Position numbers and translations under genes: made by a program
From: a virus
Reading direction: 5' to 3' (one strand)
IMG/VR virus record: IMGVR_UViG_3300025818_000132
Span: 1-28,454 of that record
Length of the DNA: 28,454 bases
Notes under the pieces: model-generated
Seen by the model: the letters and a program-made list of their open reading frames with translations, nothing else
The model's database searches: none
What the model was told of the DNA's origin: nothing
Shown: piece after piece, positions 7,020-28,318 of the stretch
How positions within the stretch are numbered: the first letter of the stretch is position 1
Layout: every line of letters starts with the position of its first letter

Positions 7020-7489
7020 CACGCGTCCTCCTCGTCTAAGTCTGGCTCCCAACACTTGTCCTCGCCATTCACATAATGGCCCTCGAACCCCATGCCCTCG
7101 TCCTGATAGTCAGCGTCAACGCTGATACCCATCTCATGCAGCTTGTCCCAAACAGGAACAGGCGGAGACCACGCCGTCCAACAGTTGAACACAAACGAGG
7201 CGTTCATGTTTGCAGGGTCAGTGTCTTCATCATCGTGGATCGTCAACGGCTGCGTGGCATCAACGTCAACGACATCCCACTTTGTACCCCAGTTCTTAAC
7301 ACGCCAGTCATACCAACCCTCGACCTCGTACCCCTGCCACTTGGTCTTAGGGGCAAGCCACTGCTCAAACGGCATCGGGCAGATTAACTGACAAAACTCT
7401 GGGTCAGCCTTGGTTAGATGATCATACAGTTCTTTGACCAAGAACCTTGGACCGTGAATCTCTACTTGCTGATAACAATGATTAGGCAT
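7019..7489 (-). CDS. DUF1281 / YubB-type ferredoxin-like protein
   Basis: A 156-residue protein, first gene of leftward block C. It opens with MPNHCYQQVEIHGP and contains the motifs VKNWGTKWDV (about 64-73) and FNCWTAWSPPVP (about 100-111), which I recognise from the DUF1281/YubB (Api92-like) family of phage and plasmid proteins with a ferredoxin-like fold. The biochemical role of that family is not known. The start has GGAAAGAG just upstream. Its promoter must lie in the adjacent 7490-7853 region. Confidence 0.75.
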   Translation of the reverse strand: MPNHCYQQVEIHGPRFLVKELYDHLTKADPEFCQLICPMPFEQWLAPKTKWQGYEVEGWYDWRVKNWGTKWDVVDVDATQPLTIHDDEDTDPANMNASFVFNCWTAWSPPVPVWDKLHEMGISVDADYQDEGMGFEGHYVNGEDKCWEPDLDEEDA

Positions 7490-7853
7490 TTTCTCTTTCC
7501 TTGGTTAGTTGTTTAATACTTGCAAGTAAAACACATGTGGAAAGAATAGTCCAGAATTATTTTAATCTCGGATCGTGGACCTTGGGTCACTGAGTTTACA
7601 CTATAGGGGTTTTCCCAGAGATTTTATTTTTTTTTTTTTTCATCCAAATCAGGTGTAAATTGTGTAAATTGTGTAAATGCACCTATATAAATAAGGGGTT
7701 TCAGAGATGTTTTCCGTTTACACTTCAAAAAATAATTTACACTTCAAGTGTAAATGCAGCCCAGACCTAGGTTTTTCTTCACAGGTTTTTCTGAAATCTC
7801 TGGAAAATACCGCTATATAAGGATAAGTTGTTGGCAGACAACAAGAGGCAGCT
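7490..7853. promoter_or_regulatory. Divergent control region between block C and terminase unit
   Basis: These 364 bases hold no credible gene and separate a leftward from a rightward operon. Contents: a 12-base palindrome TACTTGCAAGTA at 7517-7528; a run of 14 T at 7627-7640; seven GTGTAAA/TTTACAC heptamers (7595-7754); two CTATATAA boxes at 7683-7690 and 7813-7820, the latter a fair -10 candidate for the rightward unit; and related segments around TTTCCCAGAGATTTT (7611-7625), TTTCAGAGATGTTTTCC (7699-7715) and, inverted, CTGAAATCTCTGGAAAAT (7791-7808). The density of repeats suggests a multi-operator switch. Confidence 0.7.
7735..7755. promoter_or_regulatory. Perfect palindromic operator candidate
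   Basis: TTTACACTT (7736-7744) is mirrored exactly by AAGTGTAAA (7746-7754) around one central C, and the next base on each side also pairs. Five more copies of the half-site lie within 140 bases to the left: three tandem GTGTAAA at 7653, 7662 and 7671 (9-base spacing) and TTTACAC at 7595 and 7717. Phage repressor and activator sites look like this. The binding protein is not known; the XRE or RHH protein of block C is the natural candidate. Confidence 0.65.
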
Positions 7854-9717: not shown

Positions 9718-9808
9718 GTTCTTTCCTTTCTAGTTGAACAAGTTAACAATAACTAGAATACAAGTAAAACGCAAGCGTTATCTTGCGGCCCTCTTGCGCT
9801 TCGATCTT
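9718..9808 (-). promoter_or_regulatory. Leader of the leftward unit 8879-9717
   Basis: Upstream of the seven-cysteine gene there is an inverted repeat CTAGTT (9730-9735) with AACTAG (9751-9756), the segment CAAGTAAAACGCA (9761-9773), which nearly repeats CAAGTAAAACACA at 7523-7535 in front of block C, and the short palindrome AACGC-AA-GCGTT (9768-9779). The shared segment at a similar distance from both leftward starts may be a common promoter element. Confidence 0.4.
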
Positions 9809-9923
9809 GCGGCCCGTGGGCCGCGCCGCTCTTGCGGCCTCGGGCCGCTCCTTTACTGTGTGCCGCAGGCACTCCGTAAAAAGCGCGGGTACGCCGCGCA
9901 AGTGACCGCGCCACGCGCGGCAC
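9809..9923. repeat. Cluster of five GC-rich hairpins
   Basis: Five separate inverted repeats follow one another in 115 bases: GCGGCCC/GGGCCGC (9809-9824, 2-base centre), GCGGCC/GGCCGC (9834-9848), GTGCC/GGCAC (9860-9872, extended by TTTAC/GTAAA at 9852-9856 and 9876-9880), GCGCGG/CCGCGC (9883-9899) and CCGCGC/GCGCGG (9906-9920, extended by GTG/CAC). The two readings that span this stretch look like random translations of the repeats. Possible roles are termination of unit F, a protein-binding array or a replication/packaging element. Confidence 0.65.
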
Positions 9924-9945
9924 ACCTTTTATATTTACAGTAGAA

Positions 9946-9967
9946 GAAGGGAGCCGAAGCCCCCTTC
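9946..9967 (-). terminator. UUCG hairpin after last gene of unit F
   Basis: In leftward RNA the arms GAAGGGGGC and GCUCCCUUC form a 9-bp stem with one G-U pair, capped by UUCG closed by C-G, the most stable tetraloop class. It starts 3 bases after the stop of the gene ending at 9971 and is followed by a U-rich but interrupted stretch. It may end transcription or protect the 3' end of the message. On the plus strand the G-U becomes an A-C mismatch. Confidence 0.65.
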
Positions 9968-10160: not shown

Positions 10161-10433
10161 TTACCATTCCTTTCTATCGCCGTTGCGTTCTGCTTCAGCG
10201 TACCCCGCACGGTACTCTTCGATCTCAGCGTCATCCATATAGAACATCTCGATACGTTCGCTGCTGTACGTGTCGCCAGCGTAGTAGTGCGGTTTGAATG
10301 GGCGACCGTAGTAGTAGTCGGCACCCCCTCTGTCGAAGGGGCCACCGTGTCTCTTATCTATTTGTTTAGCAACTACACCGTCTCCGATGTAGATGCCTGT
10401 GTTCCAGTCTGGTTTGATTTGAGGAACCTTCAC
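10161..10433 (-). CDS. Conserved small phage protein (GGPFDRG type)
   Basis: A 90-residue protein with the block RHGGPFDRGGADYYYGRPFK (about 29-48) followed by PHYYAG. The H-GGP-[FY]-DRG-x-AD-x-YYGR-x(3)-PHY pattern is one I know from many small phage proteins of unknown function. The C-terminal third is an acidic helix (DDAEIEEYRAGYAEAERNGD). It shares an ATGA overlap with the upstream gene. Confidence 0.65.
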   Translation of the reverse strand: MKVPQIKPDWNTGIYIGDGVVAKQIDKRHGGPFDRGGADYYYGRPFKPHYYAGDTYSSERIEMFYMDDAEIEEYRAGYAEAERNGDRKEW

Positions 10434-11555: not shown

Positions 11556-11858
11556 TTAGTATGGGATCTCGTCATCTAGCTCTTTGGACAAGTTGACCTC
11601 GTCCTTCCGAGACTTGAGCTTGATCTTGTACTCGACCACTTTCTCGAAGCGAGTCTGGTCGTACTCAGTGTTCGAGTGCATTGACTGGAACGCTTGAGTT
11701 AAGATCTGACGGATGTCCCGATGAAGACATTCTTCGTATGACCAGCCGTCTGAATCGACGTACTCAGTCAACACTCGATCCAGAACCTTGAGGTCGTGGA
11801 CAGTGAACTCACACTTGATTGCGATGTCTTCAGTCGGAACGTAAGAATATTTAGCCAT
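11556..11858 (-). CDS. Hypothetical protein with SSB-like acidic C-terminal tip
   Basis: A 100-residue protein, first gene of leftward unit F, with AGGAGATACACA before its ATG. It is helical with many charged residues (FTVHDLKVLDRVLTEYVDSD; RFEKVVEYKIKLKSRKDEVN) and ends in LDDEIPY, very close to the DDEIPF tip of the SSB-like protein at 1-822. In bacterial SSB this tip binds DnaG, helicases, RecO and other partners. This protein may dock onto the same partners, or compete for them. The body does not resemble an OB fold. Confidence 0.65.
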   Translation of the reverse strand: MAKYSYVPTEDIAIKCEFTVHDLKVLDRVLTEYVDSDGWSYEECLHRDIRQILTQAFQSMHSNTEYDQTRFEKVVEYKIKLKSRKDEVNLSKELDDEIPY

Positions 11859-11871
11859 TGTGTATCTCCTA

Positions 11872-11883
11872 TATTAGCTAATA
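11872..11883. promoter_or_regulatory. AT-rich palindrome between unit F and the RNA region
   Basis: TATTAGCTAATA is a perfect 12-base palindrome lying 13 bases before the leftward ATG and 3 bases before the first paired base of the structured region. It could hold overlapping -10 elements for transcription both ways, or be an operator. On the plus strand TTGTGT (11858-11863) is 17 bases before ATAATG (11881-11886), a weak promoter candidate. Confidence 0.35.
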
Positions 11884-11886
11884 ATG

Positions 11887-12600
11887 AACAACGACGACGA
11901 CAGAATGACCGTCGACCGTGCCCCTGTCTTTTGTCGGGGCTGATGTTTGGGTCAAGGGGTGCCACTGCATCGCAAAAAAAAGTTGTGCGAGACCTATGGC
12001 GATGTAACTAACTCGATGCCAGCGTCCCGCCCCACTAAAAAGAGTGCGAAGCACCACTGGGCGGGACTACGTTGCCGCGAAGAACGCAACTTTATTTTGC
12101 CCCCTTGACGCGAACAATCTGAACAGACTAAGACCTGGGGTCGTGTCGCACGGTCACTTCTGTTGTTGTTGTTGTTGGTACTCGATGCCTGGGTAAGAAC
12201 TACGCAGGCGCGACACCGACATCTCCATCTCTGTGCAACAACGCCTGAAAGTTCTTAGGACTATTCGGAGTCGTCTTCCGAATAGTCTGTGCCCAGGATA
12301 GCATCGAGTATGCCGTTAAAAAACTAAGCAAGTGTGAACTATGTAGCTGAACGTGTCAGCCTCGATCCTGATTTATCGTTCGCCGCCCTGCCGACACAGG
12401 CCAAGGCACGATAAATCGGGATCGTTAGCAGGCTGACACAAACAATGCATCGTTCGCATCGCCGCGTACCACAGACCATGGCTCGATGCCGTGGTCTGTG
12501 GTTCATACTTGCAACGGGGGTTACTATGCCTGTTTGCAACGGTTCGAAGGTTCGGGTGCAACCCCCCAACCCCCCTAAGAGCGGGGCGCATCGCTCTCGT
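11887..12600 (+). ncRNA. Candidate large structured non-coding RNA (about 0.7 kb)
   Basis: No credible protein gene lies here, but long helices tile the stretch. Domain 1 is closed by a 26-bp helix with one bulge (11887-11912 with 12150-12176). Inside it are a second helix (11945-11962 with 12099-12115) and hairpins at 11920-11940, 12024-12067 and 12071-12090. Domain 2 is a three-way junction closed by 12179-12188 with 12301-12310. Domain 3 is a long bulged hairpin (12353-12379 with 12408-12439). Domain 4 is a 14-bp hairpin (12469-12501). A C/G-rich end (12509-12600) can pair GGGGGTT with AACCCCC. Six G-U pairs in these helices would be A-C mismatches in the opposite strand, so the RNA is read rightward. 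Size, density of structure and phage setting recall the GOLLD and ROOL classes; membership is untested. The exact ends are inferred. Confidence 0.75.
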
Positions 12601-12758
12601 CTCTCCTATAATGTTGGTTTCATAGATTCATTCGTCGGTAGTTTCATTGCACTTGTATGTAGACCACAAGTAGGAGTCCCTAGCCCCCAAAAAATGCGGG
12701 GGTGTATTTTCATTTGGGTTTTGTGTAAACTGCGGCAGAGACTTAATCGGAGTTATTT
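12601..12758 (+). promoter_or_regulatory. Leader and promoter region of the late operon
   Basis: A consensus -10 box TATAAT stands at 12607-12612 without a good -35, as expected of an activator-dependent phage promoter. Further on are an inverted repeat ACTTGT (12651-12656) / ACAAGT (12666-12671), a possible attenuator hairpin (12683-12703), one more GTGTAAA heptamer (12723-12729, as in the 7.6-kb operator cluster) and the ribosome-binding site GGAG about 7 bases before the ATG at 12759. Confidence 0.5.
12683..12710 (+). terminator. Possible attenuator/terminator before the late operon
   Basis: CCCCC (12684-12688) pairs with GGGGG (12698-12702) around a 9-base A-rich loop, with an extra G-U pair, and is followed by TGTATTTTC. 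The stem is short and the T tract interrupted, so this is a weak terminator that could separate the upstream RNA from the late mRNA. Confidence 0.4.
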
Positions 12759-15716
12759 ATGGCCTTACCTCCTTTGACCCAGCCGATGTTCCTCGGGGAC
12801 CGAGACCCGATGATCCGCGATCCGTTTGCCCCATCGACTATTGAGCCTGGATATATACGTGACTCGGACCTTGGGTCAGCGTTTGTTCGTTATCCGGCTG
12901 CTGGCGGGAGGTTGATTGAGAAGGGCATTGGTGCGTTGATGGACGACCCGTTGGGATTGCTTACGGGTGCGGCGACTGGTGCTTATGATTTCATTCGAGA
13001 GAGTGGTGATCCTGCTACGTTTGTTCAGGATCTGGGTATGAGTTTGGGGTTACCTATTGTTGAGAGTGGTCAGCGTTTGGCTGGTGGTGAGTATCCTGGG
13101 ATGTCTCTTGAGGAGGAGGAAGAGGCTCGGTTATTGGATGCGTTGACGGTTGCAGAGTTAATTCCGTTGTTTGGTCTGGGTGTTAAGGGTGTGACTGGAG
13201 CGATGCGTCGTCGGTTACGCGCTGAGAATCCTGACATGACGGATCCTGAGATTGAAGCTATGATGGCTCAGATGGAGGGACCAGGTGATCCAGGGGGCGT
13301 GGACTTTGGACCTCGGCCTGCGGAACTGAGTATGGAAGAGCTTCCGGAGACTCCGTTGGCGGAGCTTGAGATTATGCGGGATGATTCTGACACGACGCTT
13401 GGCGGCATTCCTATGGATCCGATTGAGATTGAGATGATCAACGCGAGTCGTGTGGAGGACGGAGAAGCACCGTTGCCTGGAGAACAGATCATTGCTCAAG
13501 AGTATGATGAGATATTTAACGCGGGTCCGAGGGCGATCCCTCCTGTCCAGACTGCGGAACAAAGACTTAGTGAGCAGCTTGATCGTTATTTTTCTGGTGT
13601 AGATGATAATGCGTTCGATGAGATGGAAAGGATTGGCCTTGATTTACAGGGTCTTGGATATAGCGATGTTGATATAGCTGATGCGTTTGATAATGCGTTG
13701 AGCAGGTATACTCCTGAACAGCGTCGGCAGTTTAGAACTGATGCGGCGGCTTTTGTGGAAGCGGAGGATTATGATCCGGTTATTGCTGGAGACGAAGACG
13801 GATTTAACCCGATGGCTGGCGATGTGGATGTGGTTCGCGCAGTCCGCGATGCGGAGTCTGACATTGAGGACAGGTTGAACCTGGAGTTGGGTCGTTATTT
13901 TGGTGACAATGACCAGATGACGATCAGCGATGCGTTGGTTGTTATCGGTGAGGATGTAGTAGGTGGATTAGAGGATCTTGATTATGGAGCGGCTGAGACG
14001 TTTACGTTTATTGACGAAGCGATGGAGCGTGGTGGTTATACCCCTGATCAACGTCGTCAGTTGATGGATGAGTTATTTCCGCCTGTAGCGACGGAGCCAG
14101 GTCAGCCGTTGGATCCGTGGCGGAATGTTGCGGACGCGGACGAGATTCCGGAAGGCGGTGCCCCTCCAGGGCTTCAGGCGTTGGCGAATGCGGTTCAAGA
14201 GAACATGGCGAATGATCCGTTGGATCCATTTGGCCCTCCTCCAGGAGCAGGTCCAACCCCGATGAATCAGCTTGAGGCAATGGACTTCAGCCTGACGGGT
14301 CAGGACACGGCGTTGAACTCTCGCTTGGATGAGGTTCTGGCGCAGGGTGGTCAGACTAAGTTTGCTAACTTGGATCAGTTTATTAACTATCTGACAAATA
14401 ACAAGAACAGTGTGACGAACGCGGAGTTAGAGGCTCGTGGTATTACGAAAGCGAACTTTGGGAGCGGCAAGATTGATTTGAACAATCCTGACACTCAGGA
14501 GTTGCTTGCTAGAACTCCGTTGAAGGTACGGATATTGGACGGCGCGGACGTTCAGTATAAGAATTATTTCTTGAACAACCCTACGGATTATCGGGAGACG
14601 GTGATTACGTTGGCGAATACTCCGTTTGATGGTCCGCAAAGCGGCGTTGGGGATTCGGGGCACTTTGAATTAACGCAGTATTCTATGGGTGGTCCGTCTC
14701 TGGTTCACATGCGGACGGGGCAGTTTGACGTTGTTGATCCCCCGACAGAGAACAAAGGTGCGACGGTAGCGGGTAAGACGTTCCACGTTGGCGAGATTCA
14801 GAGTGAGGCGACTCAAGACGCGACGAATGTTCGTAAAAGCCGGAGGTTTTTGGAAGCAGTTGGGGGCGGAGACGTTGCTCTAGGGGACCAACGGTTGCAA
14901 ACTCCGTTCTTGCAGATTGCTCGATTAAAAGCTCAAAAGCGTTTAGAAGAAGATCGACTTGCGTTACAAGCTGCTGGTCAAAAATTCTCCTCTAGTGACT
15001 TGGCTAGATTAAATGAGGCAAGAAAAGATTTCAATTATAGAGACGATGGGGGCGCGGGAATCGACGCAGAGATCAAAGCGATTTTGGAAGCAAACGATTT
15101 ACCTGAGACGTTTTATGAAGACACGTTGAAGGGGATGGTAAACTCTAAATTGTTTGAAGAGGACGTTACTGCGTTTTTAGACGATCTTATCGAAGATGGT
15201 GGTATTTTATATTCTCCAGGAGAAGTTGCGAACAGGTTGGGGTATTTTGGGGATGAGGTTAATAGGTTTGCTCAGAACGCGTCCCCTGACGATGTGGGCC
15301 TTGGATCATTGTACCAGACGGACAGGATTACGAATATCGCGGTAAAGCAGGCACTTGAGCAAGCCATTAATTCTGGCGCGGACTTTATCACGTTTAACCG
15401 TAGTGACTTGGTGAAAAGCATGACGGGCGGTCGTTTAAAGGGTCACCAAGAGTACTACGATAAAATTTTGCCGAAGAACGTCAACAAGTTGATGGAAAGA
15501 CTTGAGAAGGAGCACAACGTCAAACTGCCACGGTTGGAGAAGCTGGAGTTAAAAACTCAGTCTGGACCCGAACTTGGAAAGGTCAATGGTTTTGCCCTGA
15601 CGCCTGAGTTAAAAGAAATTTTTAAAGGGTCAGGAATCTCGGCCTATAGAGAGGGTGGACAGGTTAAGATGCGCAGTGGGGTTATGGCGTTGCCAGGAAA
15701 CGGAGTAGTACGATGA
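12759..15716 (+). CDS. Large virion-type protein with polyvalent-protein-like domain
   Basis: A 985-residue protein opening the late operon. The N-terminal 260 residues are acidic with hydrophobic helices (AELIPLFGLGVKGVTGAMRR, about 132-151). Residues 269-325 and 372-436 are two diverged copies of one unit (RL..L.RYF ... YTP[ED]QRRQ). Pro-rich linkers follow (about 440-505). The C-terminal half (about 585-930) holds the blocks YRETVITL, GHFELTQYS, LVHMR and FHVGEIQSE, a pattern I associate with domains of large polyvalent phage proteins, then a helical region with ALEQAINSGADFITFNRSDL. It ends in AYREGGQVKMRSGV. It could be an internal or ejected virion protein, consistent with the transglycosylase gene joined to it by an ATGA overlap. 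Function is inferred from size and position only. Confidence 0.65.
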   Translation: MALPPLTQPMFLGDRDPMIRDPFAPSTIEPGYIRDSDLGSAFVRYPAAGGRLIEKGIGALMDDPLGLLTGAATGAYDFIRESGDPATFVQDLGMSLGLPIVESGQRLAGGEYPGMSLEEEEEARLLDALTVAELIPLFGLGVKGVTGAMRRRLRAENPDMTDPEIEAMMAQMEGPGDPGGVDFGPRPAELSMEELPETPLAELEIMRDDSDTTLGGIPMDPIEIEMINASRVEDGEAPLPGEQIIAQEYDEIFNAGPRAIPPVQTAEQRLSEQLDRYFSGVDDNAFDEMERIGLDLQGLGYSDVDIADAFDNALSRYTPEQRRQFRTDAAAFVEAEDYDPVIAGDEDGFNPMAGDVDVVRAVRDAESDIEDRLNLELGRYFGDNDQMTISDALVVIGEDVVGGLEDLDYGAAETFTFIDEAMERGGYTPDQRRQLMDELFPPVATEPGQPLDPWRNVADADEIPEGGAPPGLQALANAVQENMANDPLDPFGPPPGAGPTPMNQLEAMDFSLTGQDTALNSRLDEVLAQGGQTKFANLDQFINYLTNNKNSVTNAELEARGITKANFGSGKIDLNNPDTQELLARTPLKVRILDGADVQYKNYFLNNPTDYRETVITLANTPFDGPQSGVGDSGHFELTQYSMGGPSLVHMRTGQFDVVDPPTENKGATVAGKTFHVGEIQSEATQDATNVRKSRRFLEAVGGGDVALGDQRLQTPFLQIARLKAQKRLEEDRLALQAAGQKFSSSDLARLNEARKDFNYRDDGGAGIDAEIKAILEANDLPETFYEDTLKGMVNSKLFEEDVTAFLDDLIEDGGILYSPGEVANRLGYFGDEVNRFAQNASPDDVGLGSLYQTDRITNIAVKQALEQAINSGADFITFNRSDLVKSMTGGRLKGHQEYYDKILPKNVNKLMERLEKEHNVKLPRLEKLELKTQSGPELGKVNGFALTPELKEIFKGSGISAYREGGQVKMRSGVMALPGNGVVR

Positions 15717-16925: not shown

Positions 16926-17376
16926 GACCGAGTACCGCAGGGCCACGCCCCAGGATTTGACGGGTATTGTAAAACTTGGGGAGGAGATGCATCAGGAGAC
17001 GGCGTTCTCTAACATAGAGTTTAGCGTGGAGCGCACTGCGTCGGAAACGATGCGGTGCATTTTGGATCCGAATTACTTTGCCAATATCGCGGTTCAAGGG
17101 GACAAGATCGTTGGGATTTTGTTTGGTTATCTTGAAAAGCCGTTTTTTACGGAGCAGATAGCGGGATTCGACTGCGTTTGGTACGTGAGCCACGATGCGA
17201 GGAACACGATGGTTGGACCTCGGCTCTTGAAGCAGTTTGAGGCTTGGACAAAAATCAATGGCGGTAGTATAGTCTACACAACACTAGGGTCGAACTATAA
17301 GTCGGATCGTGTTGGTAAGCTCATGGAACGTATGGGTTTTGAGTGTCAGGGCGGTTGGTATCGGAAAGACATATGA
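16918..17376 (+). CDS. GNAT-family acetyltransferase-like protein
   Basis: A 152-residue protein with the GNAT layout: N-terminal RRATPQDLTGIVKLGEEMHQ, a central strand pair (IAVQGDKIVGILFGYL, about 57-72), the VWYVSHDARNTMVGPRLLKQ region where acetyl-CoA binds, and the closing LMERMGFECQGGWYRKD. The usual Q/R-x-x-G-x-G/A loop appears as ARNTMVGP, so cofactor binding is plausible but altered. Substrate unknown; such proteins are common beside terminase genes in marine phages. It starts with TTG, forced by an 8-base overlap with the previous gene, and shares an ATGA overlap with the large terminase. Confidence 0.75.
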   Translation: MSKTEYRRATPQDLTGIVKLGEEMHQETAFSNIEFSVERTASETMRCILDPNYFANIAVQGDKIVGILFGYLEKPFFTEQIAGFDCVWYVSHDARNTMVGPRLLKQFEAWTKINGGSIVYTTLGSNYKSDRVGKLMERMGFECQGGWYRKDI

Positions 17377-18836
17377 ACTTACAAGGTTTACCAGAGGAAG
17401 CGTTAAAAGAGATCTTGGCATTGACGGAAGCCAAGAAACGGATGGAGTTGCGTGAAGAAGCGACGGAAAAGTTCATGCCGTTTGCGCATCATGTGTACGA
17501 AAACTTTATCGAAGGGGCGCACCACAGAATTATCGCGGAAAAACTTGAACGCGTTGCACGAGGAGAACTCAAGCGGCTTATAATTAATATGCCACCGCGT
17601 CATTCGAAATCTGAATTTGCAAGCTACTTGATGCCTGCTTGGTTTCTAGGTAGAAACCCAAAGCTCAAAATCATTCAAGCTACACACAATACGGAGCTTG
17701 CGGTGCGGTTTGGGCGCAAAGTAAGGGACTTGATCGATGATCCACAGTATAAAGAAATATTTCCAGACACGATTCTCAAAGAAGACAATAAAGGCGCGGG
17801 TAAGTGGGGCACTGACAAAGGCGGCGAATATTTTGCAGCGGGTGTTGGTGCAGCCGTTACAGGCCGTGGTGCGGACTTGTTCATCATTGATGACCCGCAT
17901 TCGGAACAAGATGCGTTAAGCGAAACGGCATTTGACCACGCATATGAGTGGTACACCTCTGGTCCACGACAGCGTTTACAACCTGGCGGTGCAATCATCC
18001 TAGTTATGACACGCTGGGGTAAGAAAGACCTGACTGGGCGGCTGATTGCGAACCAAGCAGGCGATAAAATGGCGGATCAGTGGGAGGTTGTGGAGTTTCC
18101 AGCCATTCTGCCGAGCGACAAACCTCTTTGGCCTGAGTTCTGGGAGAAAGACGCGCTACTGTCTATCAAGGCATCGCTGCCTGTAGGCAAGTGGAATGCT
18201 CAGTGGCAGCAAACTCCGACGGCATCAGAGTCAGCTATTATCAAACGGGAGTGGTGGCAACCTTGGGAAAAGGAAGAAATCCCCACTGTCGATTACATTA
18301 TACAAGCATATGATACGGCGTTCTCGAAAAAAGAGACGGCGGACTACTCAGCTATCACAACGTGGGGCATTTTTCACCCAGATGACGGTGGGCCAGAGCA
18401 GATCATACTTCTGGATGCGCGACGGGGTCGATGGAACTTTCCTGAACTGAAAGAGGTAGCGTATGAAGAACACGAGTACTGGGAACCGGATATGGTGTTG
18501 GTCGAAGCGAAAGCGACGGGGATGCCACTCATTGACGAGTTGCGGTTACGCGGTATTCCAGCACTTGGCTTCTCGCCTGGTAAGGGGAAGGATAAAGTAA
18601 CCAGAATGCACATGGTTGCCCCGTTGTTCGAAGCTGGTGTAGTATGGGCACCAACGGACAAAAAGTTTGCTGACGAGGTCATTGAGGAAGTAGTTTCATT
18701 TCCTAATGGCGATCACGATGACTTTTGTGATAGTATGACGTTAGCTTTGATGCGTTTTAGGCAGGGTGGGTTTATTTCTCTGTACAACGAACGCGAAGAG
18801 GAAATGGAGATTCCTCGTGTTAAGGAGTATTACTGA
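17373..18836 (+). CDS. terL: Terminase large subunit
   Basis: A 487-residue packaging motor. The ATPase part has the deviant Walker A PPRHSKS (74-80), Walker B LFIIDD (169-174) followed by PHSE, and the coupling motif VMTRW (211-215). The nuclease part has the acidic residues expected of an RNase-H-like fold: Asp314 in QAYDTAF, Glu378 in LVEAKATG and Asp449/Asp453 in HDDFCDS. It pumps DNA into the prohead and cuts concatemers. The start at 17373 gives an ATGA overlap with the GNAT gene; an upstream GTG is unnecessary. The stop overlaps the portal start (TGATG). Its small-subunit partner is far away at 7.9 kb. Confidence 0.95.
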   Translation: MNLQGLPEEALKEILALTEAKKRMELREEATEKFMPFAHHVYENFIEGAHHRIIAEKLERVARGELKRLIINMPPRHSKSEFASYLMPAWFLGRNPKLKIIQATHNTELAVRFGRKVRDLIDDPQYKEIFPDTILKEDNKGAGKWGTDKGGEYFAAGVGAAVTGRGADLFIIDDPHSEQDALSETAFDHAYEWYTSGPRQRLQPGGAIILVMTRWGKKDLTGRLIANQAGDKMADQWEVVEFPAILPSDKPLWPEFWEKDALLSIKASLPVGKWNAQWQQTPTASESAIIKREWWQPWEKEEIPTVDYIIQAYDTAFSKKETADYSAITTWGIFHPDDGGPEQIILLDARRGRWNFPELKEVAYEEHEYWEPDMVLVEAKATGMPLIDELRLRGIPALGFSPGKGKDKVTRMHMVAPLFEAGVVWAPTDKKFADEVIEEVVSFPNGDHDDFCDSMTLALMRFRQGGFISLYNEREEEMEIPRVKEYY

Positions 18837-28024: not shown

Positions 28025-28058
28025 GCTTAAAACTTCTGTATGGTTGGTATATCCCTGA

Positions 28059-28077
28059 CAGCTACATGGTGTAGCTG
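28059..28077. promoter_or_regulatory. Perfect inverted repeat before the next late gene
   Basis: CAGCTACA (28059-28066) is mirrored by TGTAGCTG (28070-28077) around TGG. It lies between the terminator and the ribosome-binding site AGGAG of the next gene. It could be an operator or a leader hairpin of the transcription unit that starts here; no clear promoter boxes are visible. Confidence 0.5.
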
Positions 28078-28102
28078 ACACTAGCCGAGACAGGAGATAC
28101 CC

Positions 28103-28318
28103 ATGGCTAACACAACTTTTAGCGGTCCAGTACGCTCAAAAGGCGGATTCAAAGAAATCGATGAAAACGCTACAACTGGTGCAATCACAGAGAACATCTC
28201 AATCACACACGATGGAACAAACAGCGTTGTGATCATTAAAGACCTACCGACATCTGACCCATCTGTTGCAGGACAAATCTACAGCAATTCAGGCGTTTTG
28301 ACTGTCTCCGCAGGATAA
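28103..28318 (+). CDS. Small structural-type phage protein
   Basis: A 71-residue beta-rich protein: MANTTFSGPVRSKGGFKEID, then AITENISITHDGTNSVVIIK and SGVLTVSAG. The short, Gly/Ser/Thr-rich pattern with FSGPVRS..GF at the start is one I know from marine phages after the capsid gene; probably a virion protein. The site CAGGAGATACCC stands directly before the ATG, which follows the capsid terminator. Confidence 0.7.
   Translation: MANTTFSGPVRSKGGFKEIDENATTGAITENISITHDGTNSVVIIKDLPTSDPSVAGQIYSNSGVLTVSAG

Follow-up and report, generated by a model that had tools for sequence, protein, structure and literature searches.

Hypervariable loci of phages are normally protein genes. What, then, is a folded region of about 630 bases that lies where the early (leftward) and late (rightward) genes of a marine tailed phage diverge? 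The region belongs to a virus record of 28,454 bases, IMGVR_UViG_3300025818_000132, the whole of which (positions 1 to 28,454) was analysed and is called the window here. The gap in question, 11859-12758, separates a leftward gene of 100 aa from a rightward gene of 985 aa, which is followed in rightward order by the SLT transglycosylase, TerL, portal and capsid genes. The 100-aa gene had no match in Pfam or PHROG and its function is unassigned; the 985-aa gene had no family match. As had been proposed from the sequence, the gap holds no believable protein gene, since its open reading frames are short and its middle is conserved neither as protein nor as DNA in close relatives. Homologous loci (L numbers) were fetched by means of the flanking genes. 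The features of the locus are as follows.

11556-11858, minus strand: leftward 100-aa gene, the left border of the region; 94-95% identical in L003 and L005-L009
11859-11884: left junction, holding the ribosome-binding site of the leftward gene; 96-100% identical in L003, L005, L006, L008 and L009
11887-12176, plus strand: domain 1, a long-range helix (11887-11912/12150-12176) around a large interior
11940-12118, plus strand: interior of domain 1, swapped in L003 for a different, larger folded interior
11951-11959 with 12101-12109, plus strand: inner helix GUCAAGGGG/CCCCUUGAC, from sequence and folds
12177-12314, plus strand: domain 2, a three-way junction, from separate folds of the window and L003
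12332-12459, plus strand: domain 3, a long bulged hairpin (hairpin 12353-12439), missing from L003, L005 and L009
12468-12502, plus strand: 15-bp hairpin with loop UCGAU, which L003 has and L005 and L009 are without
12511-12615, plus strand: right-hand element of 105 nt, GGGGUUACU ... ACCCCC ... CCTATAATGTT, common to all three groups of relatives
12607-12612, plus strand: TATAAT, nearly invariant (TATAGT in one group)
12616-12758, plus strand: leader of the first late gene, 97% identical in relatives and unstructured (z about 0)
12759-15716, plus strand: first late gene, 985 aa, 80% (L003) and 57-62% (L005) identical

RNA folding of the whole gap gave -383 kcal/mol, with z scores of -12.7 on the plus strand and -8.4 on the minus strand. 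The signal comes from the variable core, 11886-12510, which reached -300.5 kcal/mol on the plus strand as against -197 in shuffles (z -15.8, compared with -12.1 on the minus strand), and 12241-12480 is among the most extreme 240-nt windows in a scan of this phage and parts of 36 other sequences; the 248-nt right flank has a z of about 0 and is not structured. The ornate, strand-asymmetric fold that had been predicted at this early/late junction is therefore real. Its architecture also stood up, with the helices, the three-way junction and the bulged hairpin confirmed, apart from the last hairpin, which has 15 bp and not 14. The long-range helix of domain 1 comprises 26 bp in two runs and includes three G-U pairs. 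Altogether the helices of the window contain seven G-U pairs and zero A-C mismatches: the six listed in the original prediction (11893/12170, 11896/12167, 11899/12164, 11948/12112, 12369/12418 and 12479/12491), all of which are present, and 12334/12506.

Comparison with relatives showed that the middle of the gap is exchanged wholesale. Both ends of the gap, the first 26 nt and the last ~250 nt, match the window at 96-100% identity in L005/L006 and L009, and the middle has no blastn match to it. Such relatives have neighbouring genes of 94-96% identity, but their middle is an unrelated-looking, also strongly folded sequence, of 768 nt in L005 (z -6.4; identity to the window 96% for TerL and 94% for the upstream gene) and of 405 nt in L009 (z -5.5). 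The counterpart of domain 1 covers 230-490 nt in L003, L005 and L009, and the GUCAAGG motif of the inner helix, 11951-12109, is found again in L005, L007, L009, L111 and L115. L003 has domain 2 and the outer portion of helix 1 in common with the window, and both breakpoints of its interior fall at matching positions of helix 1. The outer helices of domain 2 differ in sequence in L003, yet pair fully, so that pairing is kept despite sequence change. A MAFFT alignment of domain 2 from the window and L003 mis-registered these outer helices, and the separate folds of the two sequences were used for this reason. A pattern search for domain 2 returned only L003 and one chance match in a coding gene.

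The locus hence combines a strong fold, a plus-strand bias and maintained pairing with conserved ends, between which helical domains are exchanged as wholes. That folds of different build have taken each other's place in non-coding sequence between near-identical neighbours suggests selection on changing structure. In the literature searched, mostly outside subscription journals, we found no description of folded domains that are exchanged wholesale at an orthologous position with conserved ends.

One explanation is that a rightward transcript starting at the left junction yields a large, ornate non-coding RNA, which would act in folded or oligomeric form as GOLLD and ROOL do; its 3' part would be conserved and its 5' domains hypervariable and exchangeable. 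The size, the long-range helix and the multi-branched domains are as expected of such an RNA, as are the excess of G-U pairs over A-C mismatches in the window and the pairing of domain 2, and there are precedents in GOLLD and ROOL (PMC12286853) and in phage ICP1, whose most abundant transcript is non-coding and ~800 nt long (PMC7567579). Membership of GOLLD or ROOL, or else a new class, had been suggested for the locus, with a cmscan search of all Rfam models as the check. That search returned nothing in the region of the window, either at gathering thresholds or at E up to 10, and at E up to 0.5 none of the scanned loci of relatives matched in the region. ARAGORN found no tRNA in the 28-kb window, and blastn of the region against INPHARED phages had no match. 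We therefore rejected identity with either RNA on the defining features tested, namely the covariance-model match and, for GOLLD, the tRNA. GOLLD lies often, although not always, near tRNA genes, accumulates in lytic growth and forms a homo-oligomeric cage (PMC12286853). The present locus resembles it in being phage-borne, several hundred nt long and elaborately folded, and in layout only by its conserved 3' part (here the 105-nt element) and variable 5' part; it differs in the lack of an Rfam match and of a tRNA and in its wholesale domain exchange, and is known from sequence alone. ROOL is likewise phage-borne, about 600 nt long and elaborately folded (PMC12286853), but its 5' and 3' parts are intertwined and co-evolving, whereas here domains are swapped and no Rfam match exists. 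The ICP1 transcript similarly occupies about 800 nt of ORF-less space in a phage genome, but its transcription has been shown.

The right-hand part of the gap extends these observations to a wider phage group. The right-hand sequence GGTTACTNTGCCTNNTTGCAACGG led to eight further contigs, and the 105-nt element ties the window to ~40 further contigs with inserts of 0.4-1.3 kb; in all the element was found at 44 loci, some of them from the earlier GGTTACTNTGCCTNNTTGCAACGG search. A pattern for one block matched 69 contigs, most of which carry the same right-hand element. Where sequence suffices, these loci are syntenic with the window (TerL 83-93% and, for most, TerS 66-81%), and several of L040-L050 have weaker matches to the element just upstream of TerL. 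The shared element and the synteny indicate one orthologous, hypervariable, folded locus in this phage group. Its inserts are mosaics of hairpin blocks that have been gained, lost and exchanged: L113 equals L108 plus about 155 nt, a 48-nt block is duplicated in L112, and the same blocks turn up in different company among arrays.

Such a mosaic could in principle have no dedicated function, being a tolerant insertion hot spot for foreign hairpin-rich pieces that are kept perfect by template switching at inverted repeats. The presence or absence of whole hairpins, the duplicated block and the gene-poor junction between TerS and TerL fit this explanation. However, every full-length member examined retains a strongly folded array of 0.4-1.3 kb between the conserved ends, of 19 arrays the plus strand is the more stable in 17 under DNA and in 14 under RNA parameters, and the long first-domain helix is present in all groups of relatives; neither the strand bias nor this helix is expected of independent insertions, and we consider a mere hot spot quite improbable.

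The element also bears on where late transcription might begin. TATAAT at 12607-12612 is a candidate -10 box of a late promoter, judged from its sequence and without a clear -35, and the late promoter may thus well be downstream of the array. This speaks against the idea of a cis-acting late leader, in which the array would form the 5' portion of the late mRNA and influence either RNA polymerase, by antitermination, or translation of the first late gene. So does the exchange of the array, since conservation would be expected of a cis regulator. In favour of this idea, the fold immediately precedes the first late gene of the window and is close to TerL in relatives further removed; even so, a cis-acting leader ranks as the least probable of the explanations considered.

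Several other observations were made around these arrays. The repeat TTCTCTTTG often occurs where neighbouring blocks abut in the L113, L112, L111, L109 and L108 arrays, and is a possible junction for block exchange. In one group of relatives, L123, L134, L147, L152 and L160, the right-hand element is separated from the late genes by a small basic ORF (~84 aa) that matches HNH_3. Distant relatives have strong intergenic folds between or near terminase genes (L018:10086-10632, from HTVC023P; L015:14127-15068; L101:3476-4469; z -6.6 to -8.6), and the right-hand element is absent from these three stretches. The motif CCACTAAAA..TGCGAAGC was discarded as a homologue finder, its matches being mostly chance ones inside genes. 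L024 was judged unrelated: its structured intergenic stretch at 1400-1600 contains CCCCACTAAAAGAGGTGCGAAGCACC and is like window positions 12030-12054 in this short motif only.

A block of 74 nt in the sister arrays links the locus to single-stranded DNA. The block folds as a three-way junction that shows covariation, with 96% of cells paired and 55 cells doubly changed where shuffles have 17; this structure replaced an initial pseudoknot reading. The block contains 3 G-U and 8 A-C cells and has no Rfam match. Among ssDNA Microviridae it was found in MH572438 and, over 53 nt, in KT264808; other phages have it close to small-terminase-like genes. Bacterial genomes and plasmids also contain it, frequently as multiple copies, and its sites on conjugative plasmids include leading regions; together with its flank it is matched by 1053 plasmid records. 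All three copies in pDR208 are on the minus strand and all four in an IncN plasmid on the plus strand, so that in the two plasmids examined 7 of 7 copies lie on the inferred transferred strand, the first to enter, and several are antisense to neighbouring genes. This strand was inferred from the order of the relaxase gene, the gap before the stb genes and the leading region, with no mapped nic site. Within each replicon checked, all copies keep to one strand (loci L197:2536-2621 and 7447-7532; L260:4853-4938, 10233-10318 and 14512-14597; L261:13660-18769; L117:2704-2781). In the IncN plasmid L261, six tandem 33-nt copies of CAAGCGGAGCGCGGAGGGCGAAAGCCCGGAGGC stand beside one copy of the block, at 16929-17126.

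Leading regions of plasmids are known to harbour single-strand promoters and initiation sites (PMC11541004). These Frpo/ssi elements are, like the arrays, strand-specific hairpin elements of mobile DNA, and the sister-array block shares their placement on the (inferred) transferred strand of leading regions. They differ in that the window has no plasmid match, the phage arrays are longer, and action at the DNA level is inferred for the phage. Three of the four IncN copies lie in the leading-strand gene region where CUP sequences, ArdK-binding upstream regions of IncN leading regions, are described in PMC6289460 (citing Delver and Belogurov 1997); this likeness is one of location. In the window itself the 74-nt block was sought and is absent, and blastn of the region against plasmids gave no sequence match. 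The likeness of the locus to plasmid single-strand elements is thus only through the sister arrays, and that to large ornate phage RNAs is in layout.

Is the folded strand, then, RNA or single-stranded DNA? Fold stability beyond shuffles and compensated helices in relatives are equally expected of folded ssDNA. The G-U pairs had been read as a sign of RNA; they do tell which strand folds, but discriminate RNA from DNA poorly, because a simple count on RNase P RNA (47 genes used as controls) gave 32 G-U to 30 A-C. No weight was therefore rested on the simple count, and a G-U versus A-C test on all predicted helices, which had seemed to argue against RNA, was dropped, the RNase P control being nearly identical. 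In compensation-validated helices the arrays have 15 G-U and 8 A-C against 108 compensated changes, and RNase P has 161 and 51 against 314. G-U intermediates are accordingly rarer relative to compensated changes in the arrays than in RNase P (15:108 versus 161:314), in counts taken from related sequences in which block exchange can mimic compensation without G-U steps. A search of 11600-12900 for sigma-70-like promoters, the one type covered, found none. Loops of the phage arrays favour neither GNA nor GNRA, loop type being informative for the plasmid flanks only.

The placement of the block on the inferred transferred strand, the few G-U intermediates and the lack of a recognisable promoter lean slightly towards ssDNA, and the lean is small because the sequences are related and exchange can imitate compensation. 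The other indications divide. For ssDNA speak the steadier plus-strand preference with DNA than with RNA parameters, the block in Microviridae and plasmid leading regions, the altered left junction of L007 (the presumed start of the RNA) and the absence of GNRA enrichment. Against it, the window is without the block and without a plasmid match, ssDNA elements known so far are smaller, the 26-bp helix with its three G-U pairs suits RNA better, and a dsDNA phage needs a single-stranded stage, which is assumed here. On these sequence features ssDNA appears slightly favoured over a non-coding RNA, the latter remaining a serious if somewhat less probable explanation that the missing Rfam match and the block's ssDNA contexts also disfavour.

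We therefore propose, with a probability of roughly 0.45, that the locus is a hypervariable, mosaic fold-back element whose folded strand is more likely single-stranded DNA than free RNA. The element would act as a folded single strand of rightward (plus) sense: its hairpin array would be laid bare as ssDNA during replication or entry and its hairpins would be recognised by the replication or transcription machinery, like single-strand initiation sites or single-strand promoters, and its blocks would be interchangeable parts traded among tailed phages, ssDNA phages and plasmids. A broader version is possible but doubtful, namely that a fixed genomic position of marine phages holds an array of exchangeable nucleic-acid fold modules, so that structure and not protein would be what varies at this hypervariable locus. 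The modules would move between tailed phages, ssDNA phages and conjugative plasmids, and might serve as single-strand recognition elements, of DNA or RNA, in host adaptation or defence evasion. Were the element DNA-borne, single-strand fold-back control would reach beyond plasmids to abundant marine phages; were it RNA-borne, it would represent a large new class of modular phage RNA. Published infection RNA-seq (PMC12753301) exists for a distant relative, HTVC027P (genome MN698241; TerL 58%), whose divergent gap is at 17671-18218 and in which the right-hand element has no match.

Two other structured places were seen in the window. A second strong fold lies between leftward genes at 9721-9960 (25 kcal/mol below shuffles in a 240-nt window), and the Rfam Mu-gpT-DE RNA (RF03012) was matched at 28053-28105, just 3' of the capsid gene, with 69.7 bits.
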